From Streptomyces sp. NRRL F-6676 (GTDB lineage Bacteria; Actinomycetota; Actinomycetes; Streptomycetales; Streptomycetaceae): 64,000 bases of DNA. This document shows, piece after piece, positions 31,289 through 52,616 of the stretch. The notes under the pieces are model-generated. The model ran no database searches. It saw only the letters and a list, made by a program, of their open reading frames with translations, and was not told the origin of the DNA. A program made the position numbers and the translations under genes. Location of the stretch: the NCBI RefSeq assembly GCF_000725625.1, contig NZ_JOHS01000028.1, positions 1-64,000 on the forward strand. The letters run 5' to 3'. How positions within the stretch are numbered: position 1 is the first letter of the stretch; the number at the start of each line of letters is the position of its first letter.

Positions 31289-32433
31289 TCGCGCCCCATG
31301 TCCCGGTGGACGACGACCGTCTCCACGCCCTCGGCCGCGAGGCGGGCGGCGAGCTTCTCCGACATGGCGACCGAGCGGTGCTTGCCGCCGGTGCAGCCGA
31401 CCGCGATGGTCACATAGCGCTTGCCCTCGCGCCGGTAGCCGGCGGCCACCAGGCGGAGCAGCTCGGCGTAGCGGTCGAGGAACTCCTTGGCGCCGGGCTG
31501 GTTGAAGACGTACGCGGCGACCTCCTCGTTGAGGCCGGTGAAGGGGCGCAGCTCCGGGACCCAGTGCGGGTTGGGCAGGAACCGCATGTCCACGACCAGG
31601 TCGGCGTCGACGGGAAGGCCGTACTTGAAGCCGAACGACATGACGGTGGCCCGCAGCTCGGGCTCCTCCTCGCCGGCGAACTGGGCGTCCATCTTGGCGC
31701 GCAGTTCGTGCACGTTGAGGCTGGAGGTGTCGATCACCAGGTCGGCGTCGCCGCGCAGTTCGCGCAGCAGTTCGCGTTCGGCGGCGATGCCGTCGACGAT
31801 GCGGCCGTCGCCCTGGAGGGGGTGCGGGCGGCGCACCGACTCGAAGCGGCGCACCAGGGCCTCGTCGGAGGACTCCAGGAAGACGATGCGCCGGGTGACG
31901 TGCCGGGCCTCGAGGTCGGCGAGGGATTCGCGCAGATTGTCGAAGAAGCGGCGGCCGCGCACGTCGACGACGACGGCGATGCGCGCCACGTTGCCCTGGG
32001 AGCGGGCGCCCAGCTCCACCATGGTGGGGATGAGCGCGGGCGGCAGGTTGTCGACGACGAACCAGCCGAGGTCCTCCAGACACTTGGCCGCGGTGGAGCG
32101 GCCGGCTCCGGACATGCCGGAGATGATCACCAGCTCGGGGATGGCCGTCTCGGGCGCCCCGGGCGCCCCGGCCGTTTCGCTGCCCGTACTCACCTGTGCT
32201 CCGTCGTCGTGGCCTGTGCCGCGCCCTGGGGCGCGGTGCGTGGGGGCGCTGTCGCGCGCGTCCTGCGCGTCGTGCACATCGTGCGTGCTGTGCACATCGT
32301 GCGTGCTGTGCGCTTCGTGCGTGCTCTGCGCGTCGTGCGCTTCGTGCCCGAGGGCATTGTCCTGCGGTTCGCTGTGGACGCGTCCCGGCGGTGCGGCGCC
32401 GCCGGGTTCCGTGCCCGCTTCGTGCTCGGTCAT
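31285..32433 (-). CDS. rapZ: RapZ-type nucleotide-binding protein with expanded His-rich N-terminus
   Basis: 382 residues. The conserved RapZ/YvcJ core starts near residue 98: Walker [10 protein letters not shown] (106-114), [12 protein letters not shown], and the C-terminal [16 protein letters not shown]. RapZ proteins bind nucleotides and in enterobacteria control glucosamine-6-phosphate synthase through small RNAs; the actinobacterial role is less clear. The first 97 residues form a disordered extension rich in His and Asp with tandem THDVHS-like units. ATG at 32433 overlaps uvrC (ATGA). A GTG at 32193 with GGAG upstream would give a protein without the repeats. Confidence 0.88.
32254..32340 (-). 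repeat. 18-nt tandem repeat coding for THDVHS units in RapZ
   Basis: About four to five degenerate copies of an 18-nt unit encode residues 32-60 of RapZ ([28 protein letters not shown]). Two adjacent units are nearly identical, which points to recent duplication. Confidence 0.7.
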
Positions 32434-34485: not shown

Positions 34486-34507
34486 ACCCTACTGGCGGCC
34501 ACTGACA
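34486..34507 (-). promoter_or_regulatory. uvrC DNA-damage promoter (RecA-NDp/PafBC motif)
   Basis: TGTCAGTG (34507-34500), then 8 nt, then TAGGGT (34491-34486), 7 nt before the ATG. This is an exact match to the TGTCRGTG-N8-TANNNT motif of RecA-independent damage-inducible actinobacterial promoters. Confidence 0.88.
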
Positions 34508-34731
34508 GGCGGCCGTGGTGTGCCCGGCCGTCCCCGGCCGTGGGGCGGGCCCCGGCCAGGTTCCCCCATCTTGTTGTCCTTACATGGTCAACACGCTTCA
34601 ATGCGGGGGAACCCACGGGTCCCGGAAGACGGCGTTCCCCCTCGGGGCGCCCCGCGCCCCGCGCGCCCGTCTCGCCCGGTCCCCGCGCGCGGTCCGACCA
34701 GCCGTCGCGCACCCGACAGAAAGGCCCCTGC

Positions 34732-35673
34732 ATGCGGCATGGCACACAGCACGCGGATCCCGCCGCCGCGGAGTTGGAGACGGCACTGCGCCGCGGCCCC
34801 TTCCATGTCGCCCTGCGTGCCGCGATCACCGCGCGCGGGCTGCCGTTGCAGCGCGTCCAGCACCATCTGTCGCGCTACGGGGTCAAGGTCGGGGTGACGA
34901 GTCTCAGCTACTGGCAGCAGGGCGCCCGCCGCCCCCAGCGCCCCGAGTCGCTGCGGGCCGTGCGCGCGCTGGAGGAGATACTCCACCTCCCCGACGAGTC
35001 CCTGATCCGCCTGCTCGCCTCCGCCGAGGAGGAGCCGGGCCGGGCCGCGGGGCGCTCCTACCGCTCGCTGATGGAGGCGTCGGGGGTCCTGGAGGAGCTG
35101 CTCGCCGAGCTGGAGGCGCCGCTCGACGGCGGACTGCACAGCATCGGTCACCACGAGTATGTCCGGATCGGCGCGCGCCGGGAGCTGCTGGGCCGCGAGT
35201 CGCAGCACATCGTGCGCGCCCACCGGGACGGGGTGGACCGCTTCCTCGCCGTCCACCACGGCGACCCGGGCTGTGTCCCGGAGCACGTCATGGTGCGGGC
35301 GCTGGAGAACTGCCGCACCGGGCGCGTGCGCCGGCACGGCGAGACGGGGATGCTGGTGGCCGAACTCCTCTTCGACACGCGACTGCGGGCCGGGGATACG
35401 TTTCTGTTCCGCTACGGGTTCGAGGACGGCACGGCGGGCCAGAGCCGCGAGTACGTCCGGGGGTTCCGCGGCGCGGGCGGGCAGTACGCGCTCCAGGTGC
35501 GGTTCGACGACACGGCGCTGCCGGTGCGCTGCCACCGGTTCGCCCAGCATTCGACGGCGGCGCCGCGCGGCTCCCGCCAGGAGCTCCGGCTGAGCCGGGA
35601 GCACCGGTCGGTGCATCTCGTGGAGCAGCGGGTGCGGTCGGGGATCGTGGGGATCGCGTGGGACTGGGAGTAG
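34732..35673 (+). CDS. predicted HTH regulator, conserved actinobacterial hypothetical
   Basis: 313 residues. Residues about 15-95 look like an XRE-type helix-turn-helix ([20 protein letters not shown], then [20 protein letters not shown] and an [14 protein letters not shown] helix). The remaining 200 residues form a beta-rich domain I do not recognise, with few charged clusters and no membrane segment. AAAGG lies 7 nt before the ATG. It is transcribed divergently from uvrC, 253 bp away, and converges on the Rieske lipoprotein gene. DNA binding is inferred from the N-terminal half only. Confidence 0.72.
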
Positions 35674-35688
35674 GAGTCCCTTCGTCGC

Positions 35689-36129
35689 TCAGGCCTTCGG
35701 GCCTGCGACGATCCTGCCGTCCTTCGCCTCGACGGACAGCGTGTGCAGCGGCTCGGTGGCCGGGGCCTGGAGCACCTTTCCGGTCCGGGCGTCGAACTCG
35801 CTGCCGTGGCAGGGGCAGGTGAGGGTGGTGCCGGACAGCTTGGTGATGGCGCACCCCGCGTGCGTGCAGATCGTGCTGAACGCCTTCAGGGCTCCGGCGT
35901 CGGACCGGCTGACCACCACGTTCGCGTCCCGGTAGAGCTTCGCGCCGCCCTTGGGGACCTCGGCTTCGGCGCCCAGGTCGACCGGCGCGGTCGGGGTGGC
36001 GGGCGTCTTGCCGCCGTCGCCGCCGGTGGAGCAGGCCGCGAGCCCGGTACCGGCGACGGAGGCGAGCGCCGCTCCGCGCAGGACGGTGCGGCGCCGGGCG
36101 GTCGGGCTGCCGGTCGGGACGGTCTCCAC
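35689..36129 (-). CDS. Tat-exported Rieske [2Fe-2S] lipoprotein
   Basis: 146 residues. The N-terminus carries a twin-arginine motif (ARRRTVLRGAAL), a hydrophobic stretch and a lipobox ending LAAC, so it should be exported folded and lipid-anchored outside the membrane. The Rieske ligands are in CTHAGC and CPCHGSEFD (C-x-H and C-x2-H), with the extra cysteines of the disulfide-containing respiratory type. The Thr/Pro/Ala linker (about 37-55) spaces the domain from the membrane. GGAG precedes the GTG start. The redox partner is unknown. Confidence 0.92.
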   Translation of the reverse strand: METVPTGSPTARRRTVLRGAALASVAGTGLAACSTGGDGGKTPATPTAPVDLGAEAEVPKGGAKLYRDANVVVSRSDAGALKAFSTICTHAGCAITKLSGTTLTCPCHGSEFDARTGKVLQAPATEPLHTLSVEAKDGRIVAGPKA

Positions 36130-36405
36130 AGGGGGCTCCTCTCATTGGTCGGCGTACGTCGTCTGCGTACGGCCCGACCATACCGGTACGGATCATTCCG
36201 CCTCCGCTCGGCCGACGGTGGCCGCCCCCGACCACGGCTGTTCGTTTCGTGCCGGTCACCGCCCGTTTCGGTTCGGCCGGCGGCCCGTTTGACCGGCGCC
36301 GTGACCGTGCGGGGCCGGGGCGCCGTACCGGTGTTTACGTGCGGCGTCCGCATCGGATAGCTTCGCGCCCCGTATCCCCAGCCGGCCCGAGAAGGGACCC
36401 GTTTA

Positions 36406-37329
36406 GTGATCGTCGTCGCCGGTGAGGCCCTGATCGATCTGGTACCGCGGGGCGCGGGGGCGCTCGCGGCGCTCACGCCCGCGCGCGGCGGCGGCCCGTA
36501 CAACACCGCCGTGGCGCTCGGCCGCCTCGGCTCCCCCACCGCCTTCTGCTCCCGCGTCTCGCGGGACCCCTTCGGCGAGGCGCTGCTCGACCGGCTGCGC
36601 GAGTCCGGGGTGGACGTCTCGCCGGTGCAGCGCGGGCCCGAGCCGACCACGCTGGCGGTCGCCACGCTCGACGACGGCGGTTCGGCGGCCTACTCGTTCT
36701 ACGTCGAGGGCACCGCCGACCGGCTGTTCACGGTGCCGGAGCGGCTTCCCGAGGGCACCCGGGCCGTGTCGTTCGGCACCTGTTCGCTGGTCCTGGAGCC
36801 GGGCGCGAGCGCGTACGAGAAGCTGCTGCGGGAGGCGCACGGGCGCGGGCTGTTCACCGCCCTGGACCCGAACATCCGGGCGGGGCTCATCACGGACGCG
36901 GACGCCTACCGGGCCCGGTTCCGCGGCTGGCTGCCGTCGGTGACGCTGCTGAAGCTGTCCGCCGAGGACGCCGAGTGGCTGGGCGGCACGCCCCGCGAGT
37001 GGCTGGACGCCGGTCCCGCCGCCGTCGTGGTCACCCACGGCGGGGACGGGCTGACCGCCTTCGTACGCGAGGCCGGCGGGGTGGACGCCGTGTATGTGGC
37101 CCCGGGCGAGAAGGTGGACGTGGTGGACACCATCGGGGCGGGTGACACGGTCAACGCGGCACTGCTGCACGGCCTCGCGGCCCGCGACGCGCTGTCCGCC
37201 GCCGCCGTGGCGGATCTCGGTCCCGACGGCTGGCAGCGTCTGCTCCGCCTCGCGGCCCGCGCGGCAGCACTCACCTGCTCCCGTGCGGGCGCGGAACCGC
37301 CGTGGGCAGCGGAGCTGGCCGGCGCGTAG
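36406..37329 (+). CDS. PfkB-family sugar kinase (fructokinase-like)
   Basis: 307 residues of the ribokinase/PfkB family. GGGPYNTAVALGRLG (28-42) is the N-terminal signature. DTIGAGDTVNAAL (241-253) holds the catalytic Asp247 and the anion hole. The opening VVAGEALIDLVP is typical of bacterial fructokinases. GTG at 36406 follows AAGGGA by 8 nt. It stands alone, converging on uvrA across a hairpin. The sugar cannot be fixed from sequence. Confidence 0.88.
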   Translation: MIVVAGEALIDLVPRGAGALAALTPARGGGPYNTAVALGRLGSPTAFCSRVSRDPFGEALLDRLRESGVDVSPVQRGPEPTTLAVATLDDGGSAAYSFYVEGTADRLFTVPERLPEGTRAVSFGTCSLVLEPGASAYEKLLREAHGRGLFTALDPNIRAGLITDADAYRARFRGWLPSVTLLKLSAEDAEWLGGTPREWLDAGPAAVVVTHGGDGLTAFVREAGGVDAVYVAPGEKVDVVDTIGAGDTVNAALLHGLAARDALSAAAVADLGPDGWQRLLRLAARAAALTCSRAGAEPPWAAELAGA

Positions 37330-37336
37330 AGCGGCG

Positions 37337-37364
37337 CGCACCCGAGCTCGGGGGCTCGGGTGCG
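37337..37364. terminator. bidirectional terminator between the sugar kinase and uvrA
   Basis: CGCACCCGAGC pairs perfectly with GCTCGGGTGCG (11 bp, 6-nt loop), 8 nt after the kinase stop and 40 nt after the uvrA stop. Confidence 0.75.
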
Positions 37365-37403
37365 TCGGCGAGTGCGGGTGAGTGGGCTCGTTCGCGCGAA
37401 GGG

Positions 37404-40340
<2,937 letters not shown>

Positions 40341-40395
40341 GCCGGTCCGCACCTTTCTTGAGAGAAGTGACAGGGGCGGGGCCCCGGTCACTTTC

Positions 40396-40417
40396 AGACT
40401 AGGGGGAGCCACTGACA
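40396..40417 (-). promoter_or_regulatory. uvrA DNA-damage promoter (RecA-NDp/PafBC motif)
   Basis: TGTCAGTG (40417-40410), 8 nt, TAGTCT (40401-40396). It matches the motif exactly. Unlike uvrB and uvrC, it gives a leader of about 50 nt. Confidence 0.88.
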
Positions 40418-40526
40418 ACGCCGGTCGGATTCTGTGCTCCGTAACAATCCCGGACCCTCCAGCATGCCCGACGCCGCAGTCGACCTTATAGCACGCACAT
40501 TCGATTTCCGGGCGGAGTGAGCCGTC

Positions 40527-40555
40527 TTCACCCGAAGGAGTGGCGGGGCTAGGGT
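40527..40555 (+). promoter_or_regulatory. promoter of the mycothiol-dependent enzyme gene
   Basis: TTCACC (-35), 17 nt, TAGGGT (-10), then 7 nt to the ATG at 40563. A vegetative-type promoter with a leaderless start. Confidence 0.6.
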
Positions 40556-40562
40556 CGGCCGC

Positions 40563-41249
40563 ATGATGGATCACGCCCGCGACCTGGTCTCTCTCCGTGA
40601 CGCGACCGACCGGCTGCTCAGCGCGGCCGCCGCACTGGACAACGCCGCTGTGACGCAACCGTCACGGCTGCCGGGCTGGACCCGCGGCCATGTCCTCGCC
40701 CACCTCGCCCGCAACGCCGACGCCCTCGTCAACGTCCTCGAGGGGCGTCCGATGTACGTCTCGGCCGAGGCCCGCGACGCCGACATCGAGAAGTGCGCCC
40801 CGCGCCCGCTGGAGGAGCAGCTCGCCGACCTGCGCGAGAGCGCGGACCGCTTCGCGCGCGCGGCGGACTCCCCCGCGGACTGGTCGCGCACGGTGGAGCT
40901 GCGCAACGGGGTCACCGACGCGGCGGCCCGGGTGCCGTTCCGGCGCTGGGCCGAGGTCGCGCTGCACCACGTCGACCTCGGGATCGGCCATGAGCTGGAG
41001 GACTTGCCGCAGGAGTTCACCGAGCGCGAGACCGGCTTCCTCGCCGACCGCTTCACCGGCCGCCCCGACGTCCCGGCCACGCGCCTGACGGACGGCACGC
41101 GCGCGTGGAGCACGGGACGGGCGGCGGACGCCCCCGAGGTCGCCGTGGAGGGCCGCCCGGCGGATCTGCTCGGCTGGCTGGCCGGACGCCGCGACGGGGC
41201 CGCGCTGACCGTGCAGGGGGGCGCCCTGCCTGTCCTGCCCCCGCTGTGA
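40563..41249 (+). CDS. maleylpyruvate isomerase family mycothiol-dependent enzyme
   Basis: 228 residues of the DinB/MDMPI fold. The N-terminal bundle has [20 protein letters not shown], where His43 and His47 lie near the expected metal ligands. [10 protein letters not shown] near residue 140 supplies the third. A C-terminal MDMPI-type domain follows. Members use mycothiol, the actinobacterial thiol, for isomerisation or conjugation. The substrate is unknown; maleylpyruvate is only the founding example. The next gene, for an MBL-fold hydrolase, starts 30 nt later with its own -10. Confidence 0.88.
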
Positions 41250-41266
41250 CGCCCGGAACGCCGCTA

Positions 41267-41272
41267 TAGGCT
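41267..41272 (+). promoter_or_regulatory. -10 box for the leaderless MBL-fold gene
   Basis: TAGGCT ends 7 nt before the ATG at 41280, inside the 30-nt gap after the preceding gene. Confidence 0.5.
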
Positions 41273-41279
41273 GACGGCC

Positions 41280-41936
41280 ATGACGTACAGCGGAGCGGTG
41301 AGGGTCGGCGGTCCGGCCGATGTGCACGAGCTGCAAAACTTGATGATCACCAAGATCGCGGTCGGCCCCATGGACAACAACGCCTATCTGCTGCGCTGCC
41401 GGGCCACCGACGAGCAGCTCCTGATCGACGCCGCCAATGACGCCCACACGCTGCTCGGGACGATCGGTGACGACGGCATCACGTCCGTCGTCACCACCCA
41501 CCGGCACGGCGACCACTGGCAGGCGCTCGCCGAGGTCGTGGCCGCCACCGGCGCCCGCACCTACGCCGGCCGGGACGACGCCGAGGGCATCCCGGTCCCC
41601 ACGGACGTGCCGGTCGACGACGGCGACACGATCCGGGTGGGGCGCGTGACGCTCACCGCGCGCCACCTGGTCGGCCACACGCCGGGCTCGATCGCCCTCG
41701 TCTACGACGACCCGCACGGGCATCCCCATGTCTTCACGGGGGACTGCCTCTTCCCGGGCGGGGTCGGCAACACCTTCAAGGACGCGAAGGCGTTCGCCAG
41801 TCTGATCCACGACGTCGAGACCAGGATCTTCGACGTGCTCCCGGACGAGACGTGGGTCTACCCCGGCCACGGCAACGACACCACGCTGGGCGCGGAGCGC
41901 CCCCATCTGCCGGAGTGGCGCGCGCGGGGCTGGTAG
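41280..41936 (+). CDS. MBL-fold metallo-hydrolase (glyoxalase II-like)
   Basis: 218 residues. The metal motif HRHGDH is in VTTHRHGDHWQALAE (about 76-90). Later ligands are in GHTPGSIALVYDD, FTGDCLFPGGVGNT and YPGHGNDTT, which together match hydroxyacylglutathione-hydrolase-like enzymes. In an organism that uses mycothiol instead of glutathione, a thioester of mycothiol is a reasonable substrate, and the neighbour is a mycothiol-dependent family enzyme. ATG at 41280 follows a -10 by 7 nt; an internal ATG at about 41343 begins the conserved part. Confidence 0.88.
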   Translation: MTYSGAVRVGGPADVHELQNLMITKIAVGPMDNNAYLLRCRATDEQLLIDAANDAHTLLGTIGDDGITSVVTTHRHGDHWQALAEVVAATGARTYAGRDDAEGIPVPTDVPVDDGDTIRVGRVTLTARHLVGHTPGSIALVYDDPHGHPHVFTGDCLFPGGVGNTFKDAKAFASLIHDVETRIFDVLPDETWVYPGHGNDTTLGAERPHLPEWRARGW

Positions 41937-41957
41937 CCCCGGTCCCGCCGGTACGGC

Positions 41958-42431
41958 TCAGGTGGCCGCGCGGCCGTCCGCCGCGAGCGTCGCGACCCGC
42001 TCCACCCCGAACGCGTACCCCTGCACCCCGCACCCGGCGATGACCCCGTCGGCGCGCAGCGAGACGTACGAGTGGTGCCGGAACTCCTCGCGCTTGTGGA
42101 TGTTGGAGATGTGCACCTCCACCACCGGCAGTCCGTCGCAGGTGTTCAGGGCGTCGAGGATCGCCACCGAGGTGTGCGAGTAGGCCGCGGGGTTGATCAC
42201 GATCCCGGCGTGGTGCAGCCGCGCCTCGTGGATCCAGTCCACCAGCTCGCCCTCGTGGTTCGACTGCCGGAAGTCGACCGTGCCCCCGTGCGCGGCCGCG
42301 GCCTTGACGCACAGCGCCTCGATGTCGGCGAGCGTGTCCCGCCCGTAGATCTCCGGCTGCCGCTGCCCCAGCAGATTGAGATTGGGCCCGTTGAGAATCA
42401 TGATCGGGGCACTGGCAAGGGTGCGCGACAC
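41958..42431 (-). CDS. aroQ: type II 3-dehydroquinate dehydratase
   Basis: 157 residues, flavodoxin-like type II dehydroquinase. Motifs are [19 protein letters not shown] (with the catalytic loop Arg and Tyr), [27 protein letters not shown] and [17 protein letters not shown] with the catalytic His. It makes 3-dehydroshikimate in the shikimate pathway or in quinate breakdown. GTG at 42431 has a perfect GGAGGT six to seven nt upstream, so a longer reading from 42458 is rejected. No other shikimate gene is near. Confidence 0.94.
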
Positions 42432-42542
42432 GCTACCTCCGGTCCGAAACGGCTCCACCGGCCCGTTTGGACCGCTGCTGCCCCCGGTCTATCACGCTGC
42501 GCCGGCGCGGCGACGGCCCGTACGCCCTCCCGGCGCCCCGGC

Positions 42543-43643
42543 TCAGGGGTTGACCGCCAGTTCCAGGTAGGCGGCGAAGAGGACCAGGTGGACGCCGCCC
42601 TGGAGGGGGGTGGCGCGGCCCGGGACCACCGTCAGGGAGCTCACCACGACCGTGAGCAGGAGCAGCACCATGTGCAGCGGGGCCAGGCCCAGGACCAGGG
42701 GGCCGGGGAGCCAGACGGAGGCGGCGGCCACGGCGGGGATCGTCAGGCCGATGCTGGCCATGGCGGAGCCGAGGGCCAGGTTGAGGCTGGTCTGCACACG
42801 GTCGCGGCGGGCCGAGCGGAGCGCGGCGATGGTTTCGGGCAGCAGCACGAGCAGGGCGATGATCACGCCGACGACGGCGTGCGGCAGTCCGGCCGCCGCC
42901 ACTCCGGACTCCAGGGTGGGCGACACCCCTTTGGCCAGGCCGACCACCCCGATCAGTGCGGCGCCGAGCAGCCCCAGGCTGATCCCGGACTCCCGCGCGG
43001 ACGGCCTGCGGGCATGGTCCTCGGCCCGGATCACCTCTCCCTGCCGGGTGATCGGGAGGAAGTAGTCCCGGTGGCGCACCGTCTGGGTGGCGACGAACAG
43101 GCCGTAGAGGACGAGGGAGGACACGGCCGCGAAGGCGAGCTGGGGAGTGGAGAACTCGGGGCCCTGCTTGCTCGTGGTGAAGGTCGGCAGCACCAGGCTG
43201 AGCGTGGCCAGCGTCGCCACGGTGGCGAGTGCGGCGCCGGTGCCCTCCGGGTTGAAGACCGCCGTGCCGTGCCGCAGCGAGCCCACGAGCAGGCTCAGGC
43301 CGACCACTCCGTTGCAGGTGATCATCACCGCCGCGAAGACGGTGTCGCGGGCGAGCGTCGCGCTCTTGTCGCCGCCGTCCGCCATCAGGGTGACGATGAG
43401 GGCGACCTCGATGACCGTGACGGCGATGGCGAGCACCAGGGAGCCGAAGGGCTCGCCCACCCGGTGCGCGACCACCTCGGCGTGGTGGACCGCCGCCAGG
43501 ACCGCTCCGGCGAGCACGACGGTCACCAGGGCCACGACCGGGCCGGGCAGGTCGCGCCCCCAGGTGAGGGCCAGCAGGACGACCGCCAGCAGGGGCACGA
43601 CGGTCGTCCACCGCGTGGCGAGCGCCCGGGACCGAACGATCAT
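42543..43643 (-). CDS. chaA: calcium/cation:proton antiporter (ChaA type)
   Basis: 366 residues with about eleven membrane helices arranged as two sodium/calcium-exchanger repeats. The conserved acidic motifs are GEPFGSLVLAIAVTVIEVAL in the first half and LLVLLPETIAALRSARRDRV in the second, both of the ChaA/CAX type. It should export Ca2+ or related cations for protons. It begins 64 nt after terC on the same strand, so it may share the riboswitch-controlled terC message. Confidence 0.85.
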   Translation of the reverse strand: MIVRSRALATRWTTVVPLLAVVLLALTWGRDLPGPVVALVTVVLAGAVLAAVHHAEVVAHRVGEPFGSLVLAIAVTVIEVALIVTLMADGGDKSATLARDTVFAAVMITCNGVVGLSLLVGSLRHGTAVFNPEGTGAALATVATLATLSLVLPTFTTSKQGPEFSTPQLAFAAVSSLVLYGLFVATQTVRHRDYFLPITRQGEVIRAEDHARRPSARESGISLGLLGAALIGVVGLAKGVSPTLESGVAAAGLPHAVVGVIIALLVLLPETIAALRSARRDRVQTSLNLALGSAMASIGLTIPAVAAASVWLPGPLVLGLAPLHMVLLLLTVVVSSLTVVPGRATPLQGGVHLVLFAAYLELAVNP

Positions 43644-43707
43644 GACGCGATCGTCGCAGAGACGGGGTGGCCCCGCACGTCCGGACGCCGGTCCGCTGCC
43701 GGCACCG

Positions 43708-44709
43708 TCACGCGTCCACGCTGTTCTCGGCGGCGTCCTCCGTCTCGGCCTTCGCCGCCCCGGCGGCCTCCTGCTTCCGCGAGGCCATGAGGCTGGTGAT
43801 CGTGGTGACGATCAGCACCGCGCAGATCACGCCGAGCGAGACCGGTATGGAGATCTCGGGCACGTGCACCCCGGACTCGTGCAGCGCGTGCAGCACCAGC
43901 TTCACCCCGATGAAGCCCAGGATGACGGAGAGACCGTAGGAGAGGTGCACCAGCTTCTTCAGCAGTCCGCCGATGAGGAAGTACAGCTGCCGGAGCCCCA
44001 TCAGAGCGAACGCGTTGGCCGTGAACACGATGTACGGGTCCTGGGTCAGGCCGAAGATCGCGGGGATCGAGTCGAGCGCGAACAGCACGTCCGTGGTGCC
44101 GATCGCCAGCATCACGACGAGCATCGGGGTCATGACCCGCTTGCCGTTCTGCCGGATCCACAGCTTGGTGCCGTGGTAGCGGTCGGCGACACCGAACCTG
44201 CGCTCGGCGGCCTTGAGCAGCTTGTTCTCCTCGAACTCCTCGTCCTCCTCGTCGGCGCGTGCCTCCTGGATGAGCTTCCAGGCCGTCCAGACGAGGAAGG
44301 CCCCGAAGAGGTAGAAGACCCAGGCGAAGCTGGCGAGGATGGCGGCGCCCGCGGCGATGAAGATCGCGCGCAGCACCAGGGCTATGAGGACGCCGACCAG
44401 CAGCACTCGCTGCTGGTACTTCGAGGGCACCGAGAACTTCGCCATGATCAGGACGAAGACGAAGAGGTTGTCGACGCTGAGCGACTTCTCGGTGACGAAG
44501 CCGGCGAAGAACTCCCCCGACGGCCGGCCGCCGCCGAAGACCAGCAGGCCGAGGCCGAACAGCCCGGCCAGCGCGATCCACACGACCGTCCAGATTCCGG
44601 CTTCCTTGACGGACACGTCGTGCGGTTTGCGGCCGATGAGGAAGTCGACGGCGATCAGGGCGGCCAGCCCCACGAGGGTGAGAACCCACAGGTTCACGGA
44701 TACATCCAC
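43708..44709 (-). CDS. TerC-family integral membrane protein (putative Mn2+ exporter)
   Basis: 333 residues with about nine membrane helices. Family motifs are VTEKSLSVDNLFVFVLIMAK (about 73-92) and VMLAIGTTDVLFALDSIPAI (about 200-220), whose acidic residues lie within helices. TerC proteins of the Alx/YkoY group export manganese and can help metalate secreted proteins. The charged loop ADEEDEEFEENKL (about 148-160) may be cytosolic. GGAGG precedes the GTG start and lies inside a predicted switch helix. A manganese-type riboswitch is upstream and a cation antiporter downstream. Confidence 0.9.
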   Translation of the reverse strand: MDVSVNLWVLTLVGLAALIAVDFLIGRKPHDVSVKEAGIWTVVWIALAGLFGLGLLVFGGGRPSGEFFAGFVTEKSLSVDNLFVFVLIMAKFSVPSKYQQRVLLVGVLIALVLRAIFIAAGAAILASFAWVFYLFGAFLVWTAWKLIQEARADEEDEEFEENKLLKAAERRFGVADRYHGTKLWIRQNGKRVMTPMLVVMLAIGTTDVLFALDSIPAIFGLTQDPYIVFTANAFALMGLRQLYFLIGGLLKKLVHLSYGLSVILGFIGVKLVLHALHESGVHVPEISIPVSLGVICAVLIVTTITSLMASRKQEAAGAAKAETEDAAENSVDA

Positions 44710-44713
44710 TGCG

Positions 44714-44880
44714 CCTCCGGTAGTACGTCACGGCAATCTCGGTCGTGTCACCGGAGGTCTCTTCCACCCGTGCCGCCGGAACGCGAGGCGCGTCCGGTGC
44801 GCGGGCCGACGCCCCGGGATCCGATATCGGTCCGTACTGACGGGCACGTCGCGCAGACGGGGAGTACTCCCCTCCGTACG
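44714..44880 (-). promoter_or_regulatory. yybP-ykoY-type (Mn2+) riboswitch in the terC leader
   Basis: The leader RNA opens with CGGAGG-GGAGUA (from 44876), then has CCCGUCAGUACGG, CCGGGGCGUCGGCC and finally GAGA-CCUCCG (to about 44752). GGGGAGUA, CGUCA and GAGACC are the hallmark sequences of this class. CGGAGG and CCUCCG form the closing stem P1. CCUCCGGU (44757-44750) is also an 8-base perfect complement of ACCGGAGG (44721-44714), which contains the terC ribosome binding site. Ligand binding should free the site and turn translation on. Confidence 0.8.
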
Positions 44881-44884
44881 GACG

Positions 44885-44914
44885 AGAGTACCCGAATCAC
44901 CAAGGAAAGGTAAA
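44885..44914 (-). promoter_or_regulatory. terC promoter
   Basis: TTTACC (-35, 44914-44909), 18 nt, TACTCT (-10, 44890-44885). Transcription would start near 44878, right at the riboswitch P1 stem. The rest of the 313-bp gap (44915-45022) is partly AT-rich, with no supported gene. Confidence 0.65.
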
Positions 44915-45022
44915 GTGAATGGCAAAGGAAAGATCAAAGAGCCAGTTCAGACGCCTTTACTCGTACTTGGCAAACGTCTCGGAGCGGGCGGGGCAGGCAC
45001 GGCCAGGGGGCGGCTCACCGCC

Positions 45023-46969
45023 TCAGCGGTTCCACTCCCGGCGGGCCTTCGCGACGTGCTCCAGCACCTGCCCGAGCACCGGGCTGCCGGCCGGGATCTG
45101 CGGCGGCTCGTACGTCCAGGCGTGCCCCACCCACGGGTCCACGAGGTGGTCGTCGGAGACCGGGGTGAGCCGCAGCAGGGCGCGCCAGAGCGGGTCCAGG
45201 AGCGGTCCGTACCCGGCGGCGTCCTCCCGGTCGGCGACCAGCATCAGATGGACACCCACCGCCGGTCCCTCGTCCGCGAGATAGCGCAGCTGGGTCACGG
45301 CACGGTCGTCGAAGCCGTGCGGGAAGTCGTTGACGATCAGCAGCTGCTCGGCCGTGTCGACGTCCGGGGGCAGCGCGTCGGCCGCGCCGCCGCGGAACGC
45401 CATCTGAAGCAGGTCCACCCGCTGGGTGAGTGCTCCCAGCACCGACGCGACCCCGGCCGGTCCCGCACCCGGCGGACCTGCGAGCACACCGGACCGGACC
45501 AGGGGCGCGAACGCCTCCGTCCCGGAGCCCGCCGGGTCGATGACGTGCACGGCGAACTCGCCCGCCGGATAGGCCGCGAGCAACCGTGCCGCATGCGCCA
45601 CCGCCGCGCCGAGGGCGAGCCGGCGCACCTCGCCGGAGTCGGCGAGAGTCCCCTGGGCGGACGGGACGCGCCCGCTGTCGATCCATATGCCGCGCTCCAG
45701 CGGCAGCCGCACCAGCATCGGTATGCGGACGTCCTCGCACTCGGGCAGCTGGAGATCGCCCAGGCGCAGCGCCATCGGCAACTCCATCGGGACGCGGTAG
45801 CCCTGCCAGGCGGGGCTATCCCAGCGGGCGAACGCCGGGGGCAGCGCGGGTTCGACGACGCGGGACTCGGCCCGGAGCTGGGCGAGGTCCCGGTCGAGCA
45901 CCGTCCTGGCCCGGTCCACCAGGTCCGCGTACCGCGCGCGGGCAGCCTCCCGGGCCGCGTCGCCCTGGCCGCCGAGACGGTCGCGGGGGTCGGCGAGGGC
46001 CGCGTCCAGTTCGCGTTCCCGGCGCTGGTCGGCGAAGTCGACGGCACTGCGGTACGCGGCCGCCGTCCGTGCCAGGTCTTCGAACATGCCCCACACATGG
46101 TTGTAGAGCCGCTCCTCCAGGGACCAGCCGGTCGCGTCGCCCGCGACCGGCGCCGCGGGCTCGCCGGGCGGGGCCACGGGGGCGGACGGCGGGGGCGGCG
46201 GGGGCGCGGTGCGCTGCCGGGCGGGGTGCGTGTAGTCGACGGGGCCGCCGCCCGCGTCCGGCAGGCCGTACGGTTCCCCCGTTCCGGCGCCGTCGGTGGC
46301 GTCGGCGGGCGGCTGGGAGGGCAGGGACCGGCTCTGGTGCGCGCCGGGGCGTGCCTGGGCGGCGGATCCGCCGGAGGGGACGCGCGGCGGCGCCACGGAG
46401 CGGGCCGTACCCTCCGCCACGGCGTCGGCCACCTCGTCCGCGAGCCGCCGCGCCTCGGCCGCGTCCCGCCCGGCGAGGAGGTCGGCGAAGAGCGCGACGA
46501 GACCGCCCGCGTACCCCTGTCCGACCGCGCGCACCTTCCAGGCGCCCTGCCTGCGGTACAGCTCCAGGGCGACGACCGCGGACTCGCTGTCCAGTCCGGT
46601 GACCGTGTAGCCGGCGATCTCGGCGCCGTCCGATGCGGTGACCGCCACGAAGGGTGCCGGGAGGGCGCCGAACCGGGCCGGGCCGCCGGTGCCAGGCGGC
46701 AGCGCGAGCAGCACCGTGACCCGGTGCGCCTCCTCGGGCAGCGCCGCCAGGTCGACGGCGAGCCGGTGGTCGGCGGCGGCCTGCCGGGAGACCTCGATGC
46801 CGGGCAGCGCGGGCGTGCCCGGGTGGGCCACCCAGGCGGGCCCGGGCGTGCCGCCCTGTCCGTCGTCCAACGCCGCGCCCGCCACGATCGGCTTCCCGGC
46901 CGAGATCCGGATCTCCAGACGGGTCCCGGGCAGTGGATGGTTCTGTCCCCGGACCAGCTCGGCCGTCAT
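45023..46969 (-). CDS. TerD-domain protein with C-terminal FtsK/HerA-like region
   Basis: 648 residues. Residues about 1-175 are a TerD domain (LVRGQNHPLPGTRLEIRISA, then ELYRRQGAWKVRAVGQGYAG). Residues about 180-275 are a Pro/Ala/Gly-rich linker and 280-380 a charged, probably coiled-coil segment. The rest resembles the core of FtsK-like ATPases without a Walker A: an EFAVHVIDPAGSG strand and VNDFPHGFDDRAVTQLRYLA with GPAVGVHLMLVADRED. TerD domains belong to the Ter stress-response systems. The gene follows a stand-alone terD by 53 nt. Confidence 0.75.
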   Translation of the reverse strand: MTAELVRGQNHPLPGTRLEIRISAGKPIVAGAALDDGQGGTPGPAWVAHPGTPALPGIEVSRQAAADHRLAVDLAALPEEAHRVTVLLALPPGTGGPARFGALPAPFVAVTASDGAEIAGYTVTGLDSESAVVALELYRRQGAWKVRAVGQGYAGGLVALFADLLAGRDAAEARRLADEVADAVAEGTARSVAPPRVPSGGSAAQARPGAHQSRSLPSQPPADATDGAGTGEPYGLPDAGGGPVDYTHPARQRTAPPPPPPSAPVAPPGEPAAPVAGDATGWSLEERLYNHVWGMFEDLARTAAAYRSAVDFADQRRERELDAALADPRDRLGGQGDAAREAARARYADLVDRARTVLDRDLAQLRAESRVVEPALPPAFARWDSPAWQGYRVPMELPMALRLGDLQLPECEDVRIPMLVRLPLERGIWIDSGRVPSAQGTLADSGEVRRLALGAAVAHAARLLAAYPAGEFAVHVIDPAGSGTEAFAPLVRSGVLAGPPGAGPAGVASVLGALTQRVDLLQMAFRGGAADALPPDVDTAEQLLIVNDFPHGFDDRAVTQLRYLADEGPAVGVHLMLVADREDAAGYGPLLDPLWRALLRLTPVSDDHLVDPWVGHAWTYEPPQIPAGSPVLGQVLEHVAKARREWNR

Positions 46970-47022
46970 CGCCTTCGCCCCCCTGTGTGCTGTCCCGTCG
47001 TACTGTCGTGCGTGGTGCGGCT

Positions 47023-47601
47023 CTACAGGTGCGGCAGGATCGCCGGCATCAGGTCCTGGAAGGTCCGCCCGTTGGCCGGGGTGCCGAGGGCGGTCATCGT
47101 CCAGCCGGAGCCTGAACGGTGGACCTTGGCCATGATCTGCGCCGTGTAGGCCCCGCCGCCCGCGAGCGTGTAGCGGGCGAGTTCCTGCCCGTTGGTCTCG
47201 TCGACCAGGCGGCAGAACGCGTTCTGCACCTCCTGGAACGTCTGGCCCGTGAAGGAGTTGACGGTGAAGACGATCTGGTCGATGTGGACCGGCACGCGCT
47301 GGAGGTCGACCAGGACCGCCTCGTCGTCGCCGCCCTGACCGGCGCCGCCGACGAGGTTGTCACCGGTGTGCCGAACGGAGCCGTCGTCGCTGACGAGGTG
47401 GCGGAAGAAGACCACGTCGACCGGCTGCTTGTCCGCGAAGAGCACCGCGGAGGCGTCGAGGTCGATCTCGCGGGTGCGCGTGCCGAACAGTCCGCGCCGG
47501 GGTGCCGCCTGCCAGCCGAGCCCCATGCGCACCGCGGTCAGCGTGGCTCCGTCGCTCTTCTGCAGACTGATGGCCTGACCCTTGGTCATGTTGACGGTCA
47601 C
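47023..47601 (-). CDS. TerD-family calcium-binding stress protein
   Basis: 192 residues, one TerD domain. MTKGQAISLQKSDG opens the family sequence. The Ca2+-site loop is FRHLVSDDGSVRHTGDNLVG with GGDDEAVLVDL after it, and VFTVNSFTGQTFQEVQNAFC is the central motif. TerD proteins bind calcium and take part in tellurite, metal and differentiation-related stress responses in Streptomyces. GTG at 47601 has GAGGGG 8 nt upstream. It heads a two-gene operon with the TerD/FtsK-like fusion. Confidence 0.92.
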   Translation of the reverse strand: MTVNMTKGQAISLQKSDGATLTAVRMGLGWQAAPRRGLFGTRTREIDLDASAVLFADKQPVDVVFFRHLVSDDGSVRHTGDNLVGGAGQGGDDEAVLVDLQRVPVHIDQIVFTVNSFTGQTFQEVQNAFCRLVDETNGQELARYTLAGGGAYTAQIMAKVHRSGSGWTMTALGTPANGRTFQDLMPAILPHL

Positions 47602-47824
47602 GCGCTGTTCCCCTCTCGCAATGTCCCCTGTTGCCGTGGAAGTCCACGGATGACCAGCACTTTACGCAGGGGCACCGACAGTGCCGAGTCCCGGCGGAGG
47701 CTTTGTGTCGGTCTTGCAACACAGTGCGTGCACACCCGCCGGGCGGGTCGGCCCGGCCGTCCGGCGCGGCCCGCCCCGCTCCGGATCCCTCCCGTCCGCC
47801 CCGTCTCCTCAGGCCCTCGTGGCC

Positions 47825-49969
47825 TCAGGCCAGGCCGGCCTCCTTCATCTGCCGCAGTTCCTTCTTCATCTCCGAGACCTCGTCACGCAGCCGGGCGGCG
47901 ATCTCGAACTGAAGGTCGGCCGCGGCCGCCCGCATCCGCTGGGTCATGTCCTCGATCTGCTCCGCCAGTTCGGCGGCCGGCCGGTCGGTGGGAACCGTCG
48001 CGGCGGCCTTGCCCTTGGCCGCCTTGCCCTTCGCGGCCGGGGCGTTCGCGACCTGGTGGCCGGCCAGCGCGGGCACCGGCGCCTTGGCGTCCTTCCCCTT
48101 ACGGTAGCCCGTGCCCAGCAGCTGCTCGGTGTCGACGTCCTCGCGGGCGATCTGCGCCACGATGTCGTTGATCTTCTTGCGCAGCGGCTGGGGGTCGATG
48201 CCGTGCGCGGTGTTGTAGGCGACCTGCTTCTCGCGGCGGCGGTTGGTCTCGTCGATCGCCCGTTCCATCGCCGGGGTGATCCGGTCGGCGTACATGTGGA
48301 CCTGGCCGGACACATTGCGCGCGGCACGGCCGATCGTCTGGATCAGGGACGTTCCGGAACGCAGGAAGCCCTCCTTGTCGGCGTCGAGGATCGCCACCAG
48401 GGAGACCTCGGGCAGGTCGAGGCCCTCCCGCAGGAGGTTGATGCCGACCAGGACGTCGTACTCACCGGCGCGCAGCTCGCGCAGCAGTTCGACGCGGCGC
48501 AGGGTGTCGACGTCGCTGTGCAGATAGCGCACCTGGATGCCGAGTTCCACGAAGTAGTCGGTGAGGTCCTCGGCCATCTTCTTGGTCAGCGTGGTGACCA
48601 GGACCCGCTCGTTCTTCTCCGTGCGGATGCGGATCTCGTGCACCAGGTCGTCGATCTGGCCCTCGGTGGGCTTGACGACGACCTCGGGGTCGACGAGGCC
48701 GGTGGGTCGGATGATCTGTTCCACGTGCCCGTCGGCACGAGAGAGCTCGTAGGCGCCCGGTGTCGCCGACAGATAGACGGTCTGGCCGATGCGCTGCTGG
48801 AACTCCTCCCACTTCAGCGGGCGGTTGTCGAGGGCGGAGGGCAGCCGGAAGCCGTGGTCGACGAGGGTGCGCTTGCGGGAGGCATCGCCCTCGTACATGG
48901 CGCCGATCTGCGGCACGGTCACGTGCGACTCGTCGATGACGAGGAGGAAGTCCTCGGGGAAGTAGTCGAGGAGCGTGTTCGGCGCGGTGCCCGGCGCGCG
49001 GTCGTCGAAGTGCATCGAGTAGTTCTCCACGCCGGAGCAGGTGCCGATCTGGCGGAGCATCTCGATGTCGTACGTCGTCCGCATGCGCAGGCGCTGGGAC
49101 TCCAGGAGCTTGCCCTGCTGGTCCAGGGCGGCCAGGCGCTCCTCCAGCTCCTTTTCGATGCCGTTGATCGCCCGCTCCATGCGCTCGGGGCCGGCGATGT
49201 AGTGGGAGGCGGGGAAGATGTAGAGCTGCTCGTCGTCGCTGATGATCTCGCCGGTGAGCGGGTGGAGGGTGGACAGCGCCTCGATCTCGTCGCCGAACAT
49301 CTCGATCCGGACGGCCAGCTCCTCGTAGACGGGGAAGATCTCGATGGTGTCGCCGCGGACCCGGAAGGTGCCGCGGGCGAAGGCCACGTCGTTGCGCGTG
49401 TACTGGATGTCGACGAAGCGGCGCAGCAGCTGGTCGCGGTCGATCTCGTCGCCGACCCGGAGCGGGACCATCCGGTCCACGTACTCCTGCGGGGTGCCCA
49501 GGCCGTAGATGCAGGAGACGGAGGCGACCACGACGACGTCACGGCGGGTGAGCAGGGAGTTGGTGGCGGAGTGACGCAGCCGCTCCACCTCCTCGTTGAT
49601 CGAGGAGTCCTTCTCGATGTAGGTGTCCGACTGGGGGACGTAGGCCTCGGGCTGGTAGTAGTCGTAGTACGAGACGAAGTACTCGACCGCGTTGTTGGGG
49701 AGCAGTTCGCGGAACTCGTTGGCGAGCTGGGCCGCGAGGGTCTTGTTGGGCGCCATCACCAGGGTGGGGCGTTGCAGCTTCTCGATCATCCACGCGGTGG
49801 TGGCGGACTTGCCGGTGCCGGTCGCGCCCAGCAGGACGACGTCCTTCTCACCCGCGCGGATGCGCTGCTCCAGCTCGGCGATGGCCGTGGGCTGGTCGCC
49901 GCTGGGCCGATAGGGGCTGACGACCTCGAAAGGCGCCACCGTACGTTCGATCGTGGAAACGGGCCGCAT
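47825..49969 (-). CDS. uvrB: UvrB, excinuclease ABC subunit B
   Basis: 714 residues. It is a superfamily 2 helicase fold: Walker A GATGTGKS (48-55), the damage-probing beta-hairpin [13 protein letters not shown], the DE-box-like [10 protein letters not shown], and motif [10 protein letters not shown]. The C-terminal UVR motif ([19 protein letters not shown]) contacts UvrC. It verifies lesions delivered by UvrA. The ATG at 49969 is 7 nt after TACGGT, a leaderless start; an in-frame ATG at 49999 lies in the promoter motif and is rejected. Confidence 0.96.
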
Positions 49970-49976
49970 GTCATCC

Positions 49977-49998
49977 ACCGTACGACCCGCCACTGACA
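49977..49998 (-). promoter_or_regulatory. uvrB DNA-damage promoter (RecA-NDp/PafBC motif)
   Basis: TGTCAGTG (49998-49991), 8 nt, TACGGT (49982-49977), then 7 nt to the ATG. An exact match with the same geometry as uvrC. Confidence 0.88.
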
Positions 49999-50009
49999 AC
50001 GGGGTCCGG

Positions 50010-50891
50010 TCAGCGGTTCTGCGGGGTCCGGTGGCCCCGTGGCGCCGTGCGCTGCCCGGGGCGGGCGAGGGTGCGGCGCAGTCCGGCGTCGAGGGCGTCG
50101 ACGGCCGGGGGGTGGGCGGGGACGCCGGGGCGGCGGTGTTCCACCGGGGGCCGGCCGGATCCGCCGGCGACCATCAGCGGGTCGAACATCACGACGACGC
50201 CAGCCAGGCAGAGGAAGACCAGCGGGCCGATCATCAGGGGGGCGAGGAGGGAGGCCGGGGAGTCACCGGCCGGGCTGCCGGGCCCACCGTGCAGATGGAC
50301 GCTGAGGGCGGCCATGCCGGTGTAGTGCATGCCGCTGACGGCGAGCCCCATGACGAGGCTGGCGCCGACGCTCCACAGGAAGCCGCGGACCTGTCCGGCC
50401 GCCCAGAGCGCCGCGGTCGCGGCGGCCATGGCGATGATCACGGAGGCGGCGACGGTGAGGGTGTTGTACCGCAGCGTCCCGTTGAGCCGCATGCCGGCCA
50501 TGCCCAGGTAGTGCATCGTGGCGATGCCCAGACCCGTGACGGCGCCGCCGGTGAACAGGGGCACCCCCGTGGCGCCGCGGTAGCCGACGATGAACACGCC
50601 GATGCCGACCATGAGGACGCCCACCCCGAGGCTGGCGAAGGTGATCGCCTGGTCGTAGTGGACGGGGGTCTCCGCGACGGTGAACCCCATCATGGCGATG
50701 AAATGCATCGTCCAGATGCCGGAGCCGATGGCGGCCGAGCCCAGGGCGAGCCAGCCGGCCCGCCAGGACTGGGCGACGAGCATCGATCTGGTGGTGCAGC
50801 GCAGCCCCAGCGCCCCGCCCAGGAAGGCCAGGAAGAACGCCACCAGTGGGGTGACGATCCCGTAGCTGAAGCCGTCGACGGTGCCCTGCAT
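50010..50891 (-). CDS. MHYT-domain membrane protein
   Basis: 293 residues with seven hydrophobic helices. The MHYT repeats appear as [21 protein letters not shown] and [10 protein letters not shown], whose Met and His residues are proposed to bind copper and sense O2, CO or NO. No GGDEF, EAL or kinase domain follows, so this is a stand-alone sensor-type module. The last 50 residues are Pro/Arg-rich. It is divergent from the GDPD gene across 229 bp, and its 3' end lies just upstream of the uvrB promoter. Confidence 0.88.
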
Positions 50892-51120
50892 GCGCGGCTA
50901 CCCTTTCCGACGTACTGCGTTTTTGCCAGGCAGAGAGTATGACCCGGACCTGAATGGTCGAACGATTTTCCGGCAAACAATCACGGACCGCCCCCACTTG
51001 TGCATCCTGTGTGACCACAGTTGGACAACTCCTGGCAATCGACGCCCGCCGTGCGACTTGCCCGGTGACGCTGTGCTGTCAGTCTTGTGCTGTTCGTGTT
51101 CGCCGACGCGAGGAGTACGC

Positions 51121-51993
51121 ATGCACGCGCGCGTAGCCGCCGCCACGACCACCGCGCTCCTGGGGACGAGCATCGCCATACTGCCCCCGTCCCATGCCGG
51201 GGCCACGGTGCACGACGCCCCCGTGATCGTGGCCCACCGGGGCGCCTCCGGATACGCGCCGGAGAACACCCTGCCCGCCGTCGACAAGGCCGCTGCCATG
51301 GGCTTCGACTGGGTGGAGAACGACGTCCAGCGCACCAAGGACGGCCGCCTCGTCGTCCTCCACGACGACACACTGGCGCGCACGACCGACGTCGAACAGG
51401 TGTACCCCGACCGGGCGCCGTGGAAGGTCGGCGACTTCACCAAACGGGAGATCGCCCGGCTGGACGCGGGCAGCTGGTTCGGCCCCGAGTACGCCGGCAC
51501 CCGCGTGCCCACGCTGCGCCAGTACCTGGACCGGGCCACGCTGCGCCACGAGAAGCTGGTCCTGGAGATCAAGAACCCGGAGCTGTACCCCGGCCTCGCC
51601 CGGCAGACCCTGAACACCCTCGCCGACCGGGGCTGGCTCGACGCCGACCACGTCCGGCGGCGGCTGGTGGTGCAGAGCTTCGACGCGGACACCGTACGGA
51701 CCGTGCACGAGCTGCGGCCGGCGGTGCGTACCGCCTACCTGGGCACCCCGCGCGTCGCGGACCTGCCCCGGTACGCCGAGTTCACCGACGGCGTCAACGG
51801 CGCCCATCCCACGCTGTCGGCCGGGTACGTGTCCGCCGCCCACGCGGTCGAGGGCCCGCACGGCCGTCCGCTACGGGTGATGGCCTGGACGGTGAACACC
51901 GCCGACGTGGCCCGCCGCGTCGCCGGGTACGACGTCGACGGCATCATCACCAACGTGCCGGACGTGGTGCGGCGGGCGGTGGAGGAGGACTGA
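51121..51993 (+). CDS. secreted glycerophosphodiester phosphodiesterase
   Basis: 290 residues. An N-terminal signal peptide (MHARVAAATTTALLGTSIAI, cleavage probably after SHAGA) precedes the GDPD barrel. Catalytic motifs are IVAHRGASGYAPENT (His and Arg) and VENDVQRTKDGRLVVLHDDT (acidic metal ligands and second His), with LVLEIKNPELYPG later. It hydrolyses deacylated phospholipid or teichoic-acid-like glycerophosphodiesters outside the cell, releasing glycerol 3-phosphate. GAGGAG lies 5 nt before the ATG. Confidence 0.93.
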   Translation: MHARVAAATTTALLGTSIAILPPSHAGATVHDAPVIVAHRGASGYAPENTLPAVDKAAAMGFDWVENDVQRTKDGRLVVLHDDTLARTTDVEQVYPDRAPWKVGDFTKREIARLDAGSWFGPEYAGTRVPTLRQYLDRATLRHEKLVLEIKNPELYPGLARQTLNTLADRGWLDADHVRRRLVVQSFDADTVRTVHELRPAVRTAYLGTPRVADLPRYAEFTDGVNGAHPTLSAGYVSAAHAVEGPHGRPLRVMAWTVNTADVARRVAGYDVDGIITNVPDVVRRAVEED

Positions 51994-52024
51994 GCCGCCC
52001 GGCGGTCCTCCCGTGCCGGGGCGC

Positions 52025-52046
52025 TGTCAGTGGTGCGCCGTACCGT
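52025..52046 (+). promoter_or_regulatory. DNA-damage promoter of the alkyltransferase gene (RecA-NDp/PafBC motif)
   Basis: TGTCAGTG (52025-52032), GTGCGCCG, TACCGT (52041-52046), then 6 nt to the ATG. It matches the same motif as the three uvr genes. Confidence 0.85.
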
Positions 52047-52052
52047 GGGCGC

Positions 52053-52616
52053 ATGAACGGTGAGAACGGTGCGGGCAGCGCCGCACGGCGGGCCGTCTGG
52101 ACGGTGCTCCCCACGGACATCGGCCCGCTGCTGCTGGCCGCGACGCGGGACGGCCTGGTGAACGTCGTCTTCCACGCCACGGACCCGGTGCGCGACAAGG
52201 CGCTGGAACGGCTCACGACCCGGCTCGGCGGCGAGCCGCTGCACGATGCCGCCTCCCCCCTGCTGGCAGAGGCGATATCCCAGGTGGAGGGGTACTTCGC
52301 GGGCGGGCGGCGGGAGTTCGCGCTGCCGCTGGACTGGTCGCTGATCTCCGGCTTCCACCGCCAGGTACTGCGCGAGCTGGCTTCCGGGGTGCCCTACGGC
52401 TCGGTGGTGGGGTACGGCGATCTGGCCCGGCGGGTGGGCCAGCCGGGGGCGGCGCAGGCCGTGGGGCTGGCGATGGGCGCCAATCCGCTGCCGGTGGTGG
52501 TGCCCTGCCACCGGGTGGTGGAGAGCGACGGCGGCATCGGCGGCTTCGGGGGCGGTCTGGAGACCAAGCGCAGGCTGCTGGCGCTGGAGGGGGTGCTTCC
52601 GGAACCGCTCTTCTGA
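52053..52616 (+). CDS. ogt: methylated-DNA--[protein]-cysteine S-methyltransferase
   Basis: 187 residues. The C-terminal half has the winged-helix region YGSVVGYGDLARRVGQPGAA and the active site PVVVPCHRVV with acceptor Cys152. It removes methyl or alkyl groups from O6-alkylguanine by a suicide transfer. The N-terminal half lacks the zinc domain of Ada, so this is the Ogt type. ATG at 52053 is 6 nt after TACCGT and has no Shine-Dalgarno, a leaderless start within the uvr-type promoter motif. Confidence 0.94.
   Translation: MNGENGAGSAARRAVWTVLPTDIGPLLLAATRDGLVNVVFHATDPVRDKALERLTTRLGGEPLHDAASPLLAEAISQVEGYFAGGRREFALPLDWSLISGFHRQVLRELASGVPYGSVVGYGDLARRVGQPGAAQAVGLAMGANPLPVVVPCHRVVESDGGIGGFGGGLETKRRLLALEGVLPEPLF

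Follow-up and report, generated by a model that had tools for sequence, protein, structure and literature searches.

Streptomyces produce many DNA-damaging natural products and must survive them. Whether they possess a damage response that is independent of LexA was left open by a 2022 study of S. venezuelae (PMC9380542; statements on this and the other papers cited here refer to the portions of their text that were available). This question is raised by a stretch of 64,000 nucleotides of Streptomyces sp. NRRL F-6676 (contig NZ_JOHS01000028.1; hereafter the window), in which the excision repair genes uvrA, uvrB and uvrC and the alkyl repair gene ogt each lie behind an exact copy of TGTCRGTG-N8-TANNNT, the motif of the mycobacterial RecA-NDp promoters read by the regulator pair PafB and PafC (PafBC). 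The preliminary description of the window had proposed that these genes respond together to a PafBC-like activator rather than to LexA. We find a fifth such site in the window, and the five are very probably RecA-NDp promoters, with PafBC as activator alongside the housekeeping RNA polymerase and LexA as a second layer of control. The sites and the genes downstream of them are as follows.

34486-34507, minus strand: predicted RecA-NDp-type promoter of uvrC, TGTCAGTGGCCGCCAGTAGGGT (exact match)
32430-34478, minus strand: uvrC (NCBIfam UvrC model, 1099 bits over 32430-34436; ATG at 34478 read from the sequence)
40396-40417, minus strand: predicted RecA-NDp-type promoter of uvrA, TGTCAGTGGCTCCCCCTAGTCT (exact match)
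37404-40340, minus strand: uvrA, GTG start (NCBIfam UvrA model, 1584 bits over 37404-40394; start read from the sequence)
47659-47680, minus strand: fifth RecA-NDp-type site, R=G, TGTCGGTGCCCCTGCGTAAAGT, upstream of the TerD-domain gene (exact match)
47023-47601, minus strand: TerD-domain gene, between uvrB and uvrA (Pfam TerD, 2.5e-42)
49977-49998, minus strand: predicted RecA-NDp-type promoter of uvrB, TGTCAGTGGCGGGTCGTACGGT (exact match)
47825-49969, minus strand: uvrB (NCBIfam UvrB model, 1076 bits over 47825-49999; ATG read from the sequence)
52025-52046, plus strand: predicted RecA-NDp-type promoter of ogt, TGTCAGTGGTGCGCCGTACCGT (exact match)
52053-52616, plus strand: ogt-family methylated-DNA--protein-cysteine methyltransferase (NCBIfam TIGR00589, 2.1e-26 over 51087-52616; ATG read from the sequence)

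The pattern scan returned five exact matches in the window, namely the four correctly oriented sites described before (34507-34486, 40417-40396 and 49998-49977 on the minus strand and 52025-52046 on the plus strand), all of which were verified, and the new one at 47680-47659 on the minus strand. Dinucleotide shuffles of the window (n=100) gave a mean of 0.02 matches and none of the 100 reached five. The TANNNT element ends 7 nt before the start codon of uvrC, 7 nt before that of uvrB and 6 nt before that of ogt (all ATG), which bears out the earlier remark that the -10 ends 6-7 nt before the start in three of four genes. The same distance is 55 nt for uvrA (GTG, 40340) and 57 nt for the TerD gene, all these starts being read from the sequence and not mapped. 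A genome-wide scan recovered 59 exact sites in the whole genome (8.12 Mb, 166 contigs) and none with the reversed pattern. The shuffles and the reversed-pattern control led us to reject chance as the origin of the set.

At least 17 of the 59 sites precede repair or replication genes, as judged by NCBIfam, Pfam and family scans of the downstream frames. These are uvrA, uvrB, uvrC, ogt, recA, a LexA-family gene, ruvC, dnaX, a DNA polymerase III alpha gene, two UvrD-type helicases, a PD-(D/E)XK nuclease, a DEAD helicase near pafBC, a RarA-type ATPase, an HhH-GPD (AlkA-type) glycosylase, a uracil-DNA glycosylase and a dGTPase-like HD protein. At recA, 55 nt separate the RecA-NDp site from the family-model match. 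The downstream genes are open frames of our own choosing, not annotated genes, and were assigned as five window genes, recA by its family and 50 by Pfam, while three sites (L024, L047 and L051) fall outside the domain scan.

The genome also encodes the regulator pair. Gene pafA lies at C20:55727-57079, and the two overlapping genes about 1.9 kb downstream of it are PafB, matching PDB chain 7p5x_AY (E 1.5e-50), and PafC, matching 7p5x_AX (E 4.7e-52). The M. smegmatis pair is switched on by single-stranded DNA; PafB recognises the -26 element and PafC touches sigma A at its domain 4 (PMC11804915). By analogy with the mycobacterial work, DNA damage would yield single-stranded DNA that binds the WYL domains of PafBC, PafB would recognise the -26 element TGTCRGTG, PafC would touch the housekeeping sigma factor at its domain 4, and transcription would begin about 6-7 nt past TANNNT. 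At uvrC, uvrB and ogt this would place the first transcribed base within or next to the start codon and give a leaderless mRNA. LexA would act as a second layer, with uvrA and recA as its likely targets. The likeness to the mycobacterial regulon extends to the motif (consensus as in the preliminary description) and its orientation, to the pafBC tandem near pafA and to the repair targets including recA. The Streptomyces set differs in that the fifth base of the motif is mostly A and that its damage dependence is a prediction.

The same geometry recurs beyond the window: among 134 sites from three genomes, 48 have an ATG 5-10 nt past TANNNT. This peak comprises 49 ATG codons, a density of 8.2 per position where other positions have at most 1.5, and therefore many of these mRNAs should be leaderless. 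Either ATG or GTG occurs at this distance at 59 of the 134 sites (44%). Leaderless starts account for 17% in S. lividans and 21% in S. coelicolor, and the leaderless promoters of S. lividans favour TANNNT (PMC8079986). Once this preference of leaderless promoters for TANNNT is taken into account, 35-41% would be expected; what excess is left is weak (p 0.02 to 0.28), and leaderless enrichment was therefore dropped as a special feature of these promoters.

The motif was next compared with the occurrence of PafC among relatives. The 11 other genomes of the genus hold 24-70 sites each (mean 46.7; control mean 0.82), and 26 other genomes of the class a mean of 14.6 against 0.42 in the control. Outside the class, 174 PafC-positive genomes (match threshold E up to 1e-15) contain 257 motifs against 53 controls and 184 PafC-negative genomes 122 against 109; the Mann-Whitney p of 2e-6 is only a guide because the genomes are related. 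Three or more motifs occur in 36 of the 174 PafC-positive and 6 of the 184 PafC-negative genomes. Motif excess tracks PafC across the phylum, as a trend and not one-to-one. All 32 further actinobacterial genomes reached via named loci have at least one site, a few of them no higher than the control, and PafB is present in 33 of 34 such genomes, the exception being Dietzia with 2 sites.

Conservation was also followed at individual loci, allowing spacers of 7-9, where random windows gave 12/1600 exact matches and 22/1600 within one mismatch. The uvrA site is exact in 29/73 loci and within one mismatch in 38/73 (80 loci, 73 with enough upstream sequence), and the identical 22-mer TGTCAGTGGCTCCCCCTAGTCT precedes uvrA in 10 of the 80. 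The uvrB site is exact in 9/23 loci and within one mismatch in 13/23, and ogt had no usable loci. S. gardneri, which we take to be a close relative of S. venezuelae, carries 48 sites against 1 in the control. In S. gardneri the motif lies upstream of the matching gene for 18 of 58 regulon genes and in Kitasatospora for 7 of 58; each count includes one paralogue match (L014). The uvrB site stands 6 nt 5' of the matching start in both, and the sites of the TerD gene (90% identity) and of ogt also precede the matching S. gardneri genes. A shared PafBC-like regulon is thus well supported by the 59 sites against none, the repair genes downstream, the presence of PafB and PafC and the motif excess in relatives and upstream of matching genes, and this part of the earlier proposal stands; damage induction itself is predicted.

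Besides, the uvrC site is degraded in many Streptomyces (e.g. TGTCGGTC and TGTCAGCG; seen upstream at L056, L061, L062, L064, L066, L067 and L118), yet its position 7 nt before the match start is retained. An extracytoplasmic function (ECF)-type sigma factor with a SnoaL/NTF2-like tail (L048:3134-4210) lies behind a RecA-NDp site (3060-3081), likewise in Kitasatospora. A major facilitator superfamily transporter (L038:3069-4691) has the motif (3040-3061) 7 nt 5' of its ATG, also in S. gardneri, and is a possible exporter in the damage regulon. The motif was not found at the AlkB-like locus of the present genome. In S. gardneri, neither an exact nor a one-mismatch copy occurs at the best AlkB locus (L282), and two weaker AlkB-like loci have only an opposite-strand site with 1 or 2 mismatches.

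New in this analysis is a changed letter in the motif of Streptomycetaceae. In 19 genomes of this family, 652 of 902 sites have A as the fifth base of TGTCRGTG, as against 70 of 856 in 62 others (9 of the 89 chosen genomes were omitted, and genomes outside the class were admitted only with at least five sites). The present genome has A at 41 of its 59 sites; G is the base in the Mycolicibacterium and Nocardia sampled and in most others. Two distant actinobacterial genomes, both among the 62, are also A-rich (G061, 6/11; G306, 5/7). PafB has the outward arginines R44 and R48 (PMC6789036), which appear to fall within the stretch F-x-R-M-F-E-R. The residue before these two arginines is Asn here and Ser in M. 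smegmatis; among the 13 Streptomycetaceae read, 12 have the Asn, and the sole one with Ser (G171) has the lowest share of A (13/29). A code by this single PafB residue was rejected as sufficient because G298 has Asn yet A at 0 of 23 sites.

The preliminary description had seen no LexA palindrome in front of these genes. We scored the promoters with a matrix built from 15 LexA boxes of PMC9380542, taking random 250-bp windows as the reference (median score 6.6). A LexA-like box at uvrA contradicts that remark, and a half-site-like element lies in uvrB.

40491-40504, minus strand: LexA-box-like site TCGAATGTGCGTGC, 73 nt before the uvrA RecA-NDp site (matrix score 12.0, which is exactly the 95th percentile of the random windows)
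49937-49950, minus strand: half LexA-box-like TCGAACGTACGGTG within uvrB codons 7-11 (score 13.5, above the 95th but below the 99th percentile of the random windows; function uncertain)

TCGAA-type boxes precede uvrA in 20 of 22 Streptomycetaceae-labelled loci, 11 of these 20 also having an exact RecA-NDp site and 9 lacking one (of 23 labelled loci, L069 with only 92 bp upstream was set aside), although three of the 20 (L060, L118 and L122) score under the random 90th percentile. The two loci without the box are L070 (Kitasatospora) and L113 (39% GC, probably not a streptomycete). In S. venezuelae a LexA chromatin immunoprecipitation peak and LexA binding were reported at uvrA (PMC9380542), and mycobacterial recA, uvrA and uvrC are under both PafBC and LexA (PMC8223512). 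Since the box recurs and the mycobacterial genes are likewise dual, uvrA is likely controlled by both regulators, and the words "rather than LexA" in the earlier proposal find no support at this gene. In uvrB, whose third codon positions are about 95% GC, codon 8 is GAA in five of six distinct Streptomycetaceae starts and codons 8-9 are GAA CGT in four of six; these codons possibly represent a LexA half site or another signal. The SOS box of S. venezuelae ruvC, TCCACCCCGAGAAC, was placed at -23 of the predicted start (PMC9380542). In S. gardneri (L275) it lies on the opposite strand inside the presumed first ruvC codons, 46 nt past an exact RecA-NDp promoter, and so ruvC may be a PafBC target; TCCACCCCGAGAAC was not found at ruvC of the present genome.

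Could the damage response nevertheless run chiefly through LexA, with the RecA-NDp sites weak or silent? The recurrent box at uvrA, the LexA binding there in S. venezuelae and a recA box, TCGAACATCCATTC, identical to that of S. venezuelae speak for it, and the S. venezuelae LexA/SOS regulon shares recA, lexA, ruvC and uvrA with the present set (PMC9380542). However, that regulon has a separate operator, and boxes above the random 95th percentile occur at only 7 of the 59 sites here, where about 3 are expected by chance (TCGAATGTGCGTGC at uvrA, score 12.0, not counted). No LexA-like box was found at uvrC, ogt and the TerD gene, whose best scores (2.9, 4.9 and 4.4) are all below the random median, whereas the RecA-NDp motif is enriched genome-wide. 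We regard control chiefly through LexA as improbable.

The motif contains its own -10, and the ECF sigma gene carries it here and in Kitasatospora, so that an alternative sigma factor rather than an activator might read it directly. Yet only 8 nt lie between the conserved upstream block and the -10, too short a distance for a usual -35, the spacing between -35 and -10 in S. lividans averaging 16.5-17.4 nt (PMC8079986). A sigma-adaptation mechanism has been solved for such -26 promoters in M. smegmatis (PMC11804915) and the motif excess follows PafC across the phylum, which makes direct reading by a sigma factor very unlikely. Hardly more credible is a reader from another WYL family member in place of PafBC. 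WYL proteins are enriched in Actinobacteria (PMC6789036) and the G to A shift in Streptomycetaceae could mark a different reader, but all 12 of 12 genomes of the genus have one PafC match each (E up to 1e-15), 7 of 7 named Streptomycetaceae have one PafB match each, and the core motif and spacing are otherwise as given for mycobacteria.

Activation by PafBC has to be weighed against several observations of its own. Outside the class, 138 of the 174 PafC-positive genomes have fewer than three motifs. The uvrC site is exact in only 4/44 loci (17/44 within one mismatch) and the TerD site in 1/6 loci with enough upstream sequence (within one mismatch also 1). No exact motif precedes the matching gene for 40 of 58 regulon genes in S. 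gardneri, where uvrA itself is without a RecA-NDp site, and for 51 of 58 in Kitasatospora. Several sites adjoin genes with no clear link to damage (transporters, FolB, MoaA, GH20 and unknowns), and some may be chance because about 2-3 sites in the genome are expected at the shuffle rate. Besides, an initial search in the S. venezuelae study suggested that the M. smegmatis motif was not conserved, and the question was left open there (PMC9380542). The base shift is a possible reason why the motif was not found there, though the form searched was not visible in the available text. A joint reading, on which we are evenly divided, would be that a complete PafBC regulon persists in Streptomycetaceae, with 24-75 exact sites in each genome sampled, and that its -26 element has changed by drift from TGTCGGTG to TGTCAGTG. 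The reading by PafBC would have changed to match, not by PafB residue 43 alone, with LexA overlapping at only a few promoters; the absence reported for S. venezuelae would stem from a search that used the G form, and ruvC and certain other reported LexA targets would belong to PafBC.

The promoter kind itself is already known in Streptomyces, where RecA-NDp promoters have been described for recA and for S. coelicolor SCO6735 and its orthologues, SCO6735 being induced by ultraviolet light (PMC5087735), and a review extends the motif to other Actinobacteria (PMC8223512). Those reports concern the same promoter type in the same genus but, as far as the available text goes, single genes, whereas the present set numbers 59 genome-wide. 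The single Macro-domain match of the present genome, a possible SCO6735 orthologue, has no exact or one-mismatch motif within its 3.4-kb locus. A genome-wide PafBC regulon for Streptomyces was not found in the literature searched, which covers subscription papers thinly and leaves absence unproven, and a text search for the bare motif gave only chance-looking hits among the matches listed. The genome-wide reach and the changed letter bear on the open Streptomyces question, and the promoter list, the regulator pair and the lineage-specific base make a LexA-independent response directly testable. If the reading is true, the lists of LexA targets in Streptomyces would need re-examination, and the base shift would be a natural experiment in the joint change of an activator and its promoter code.

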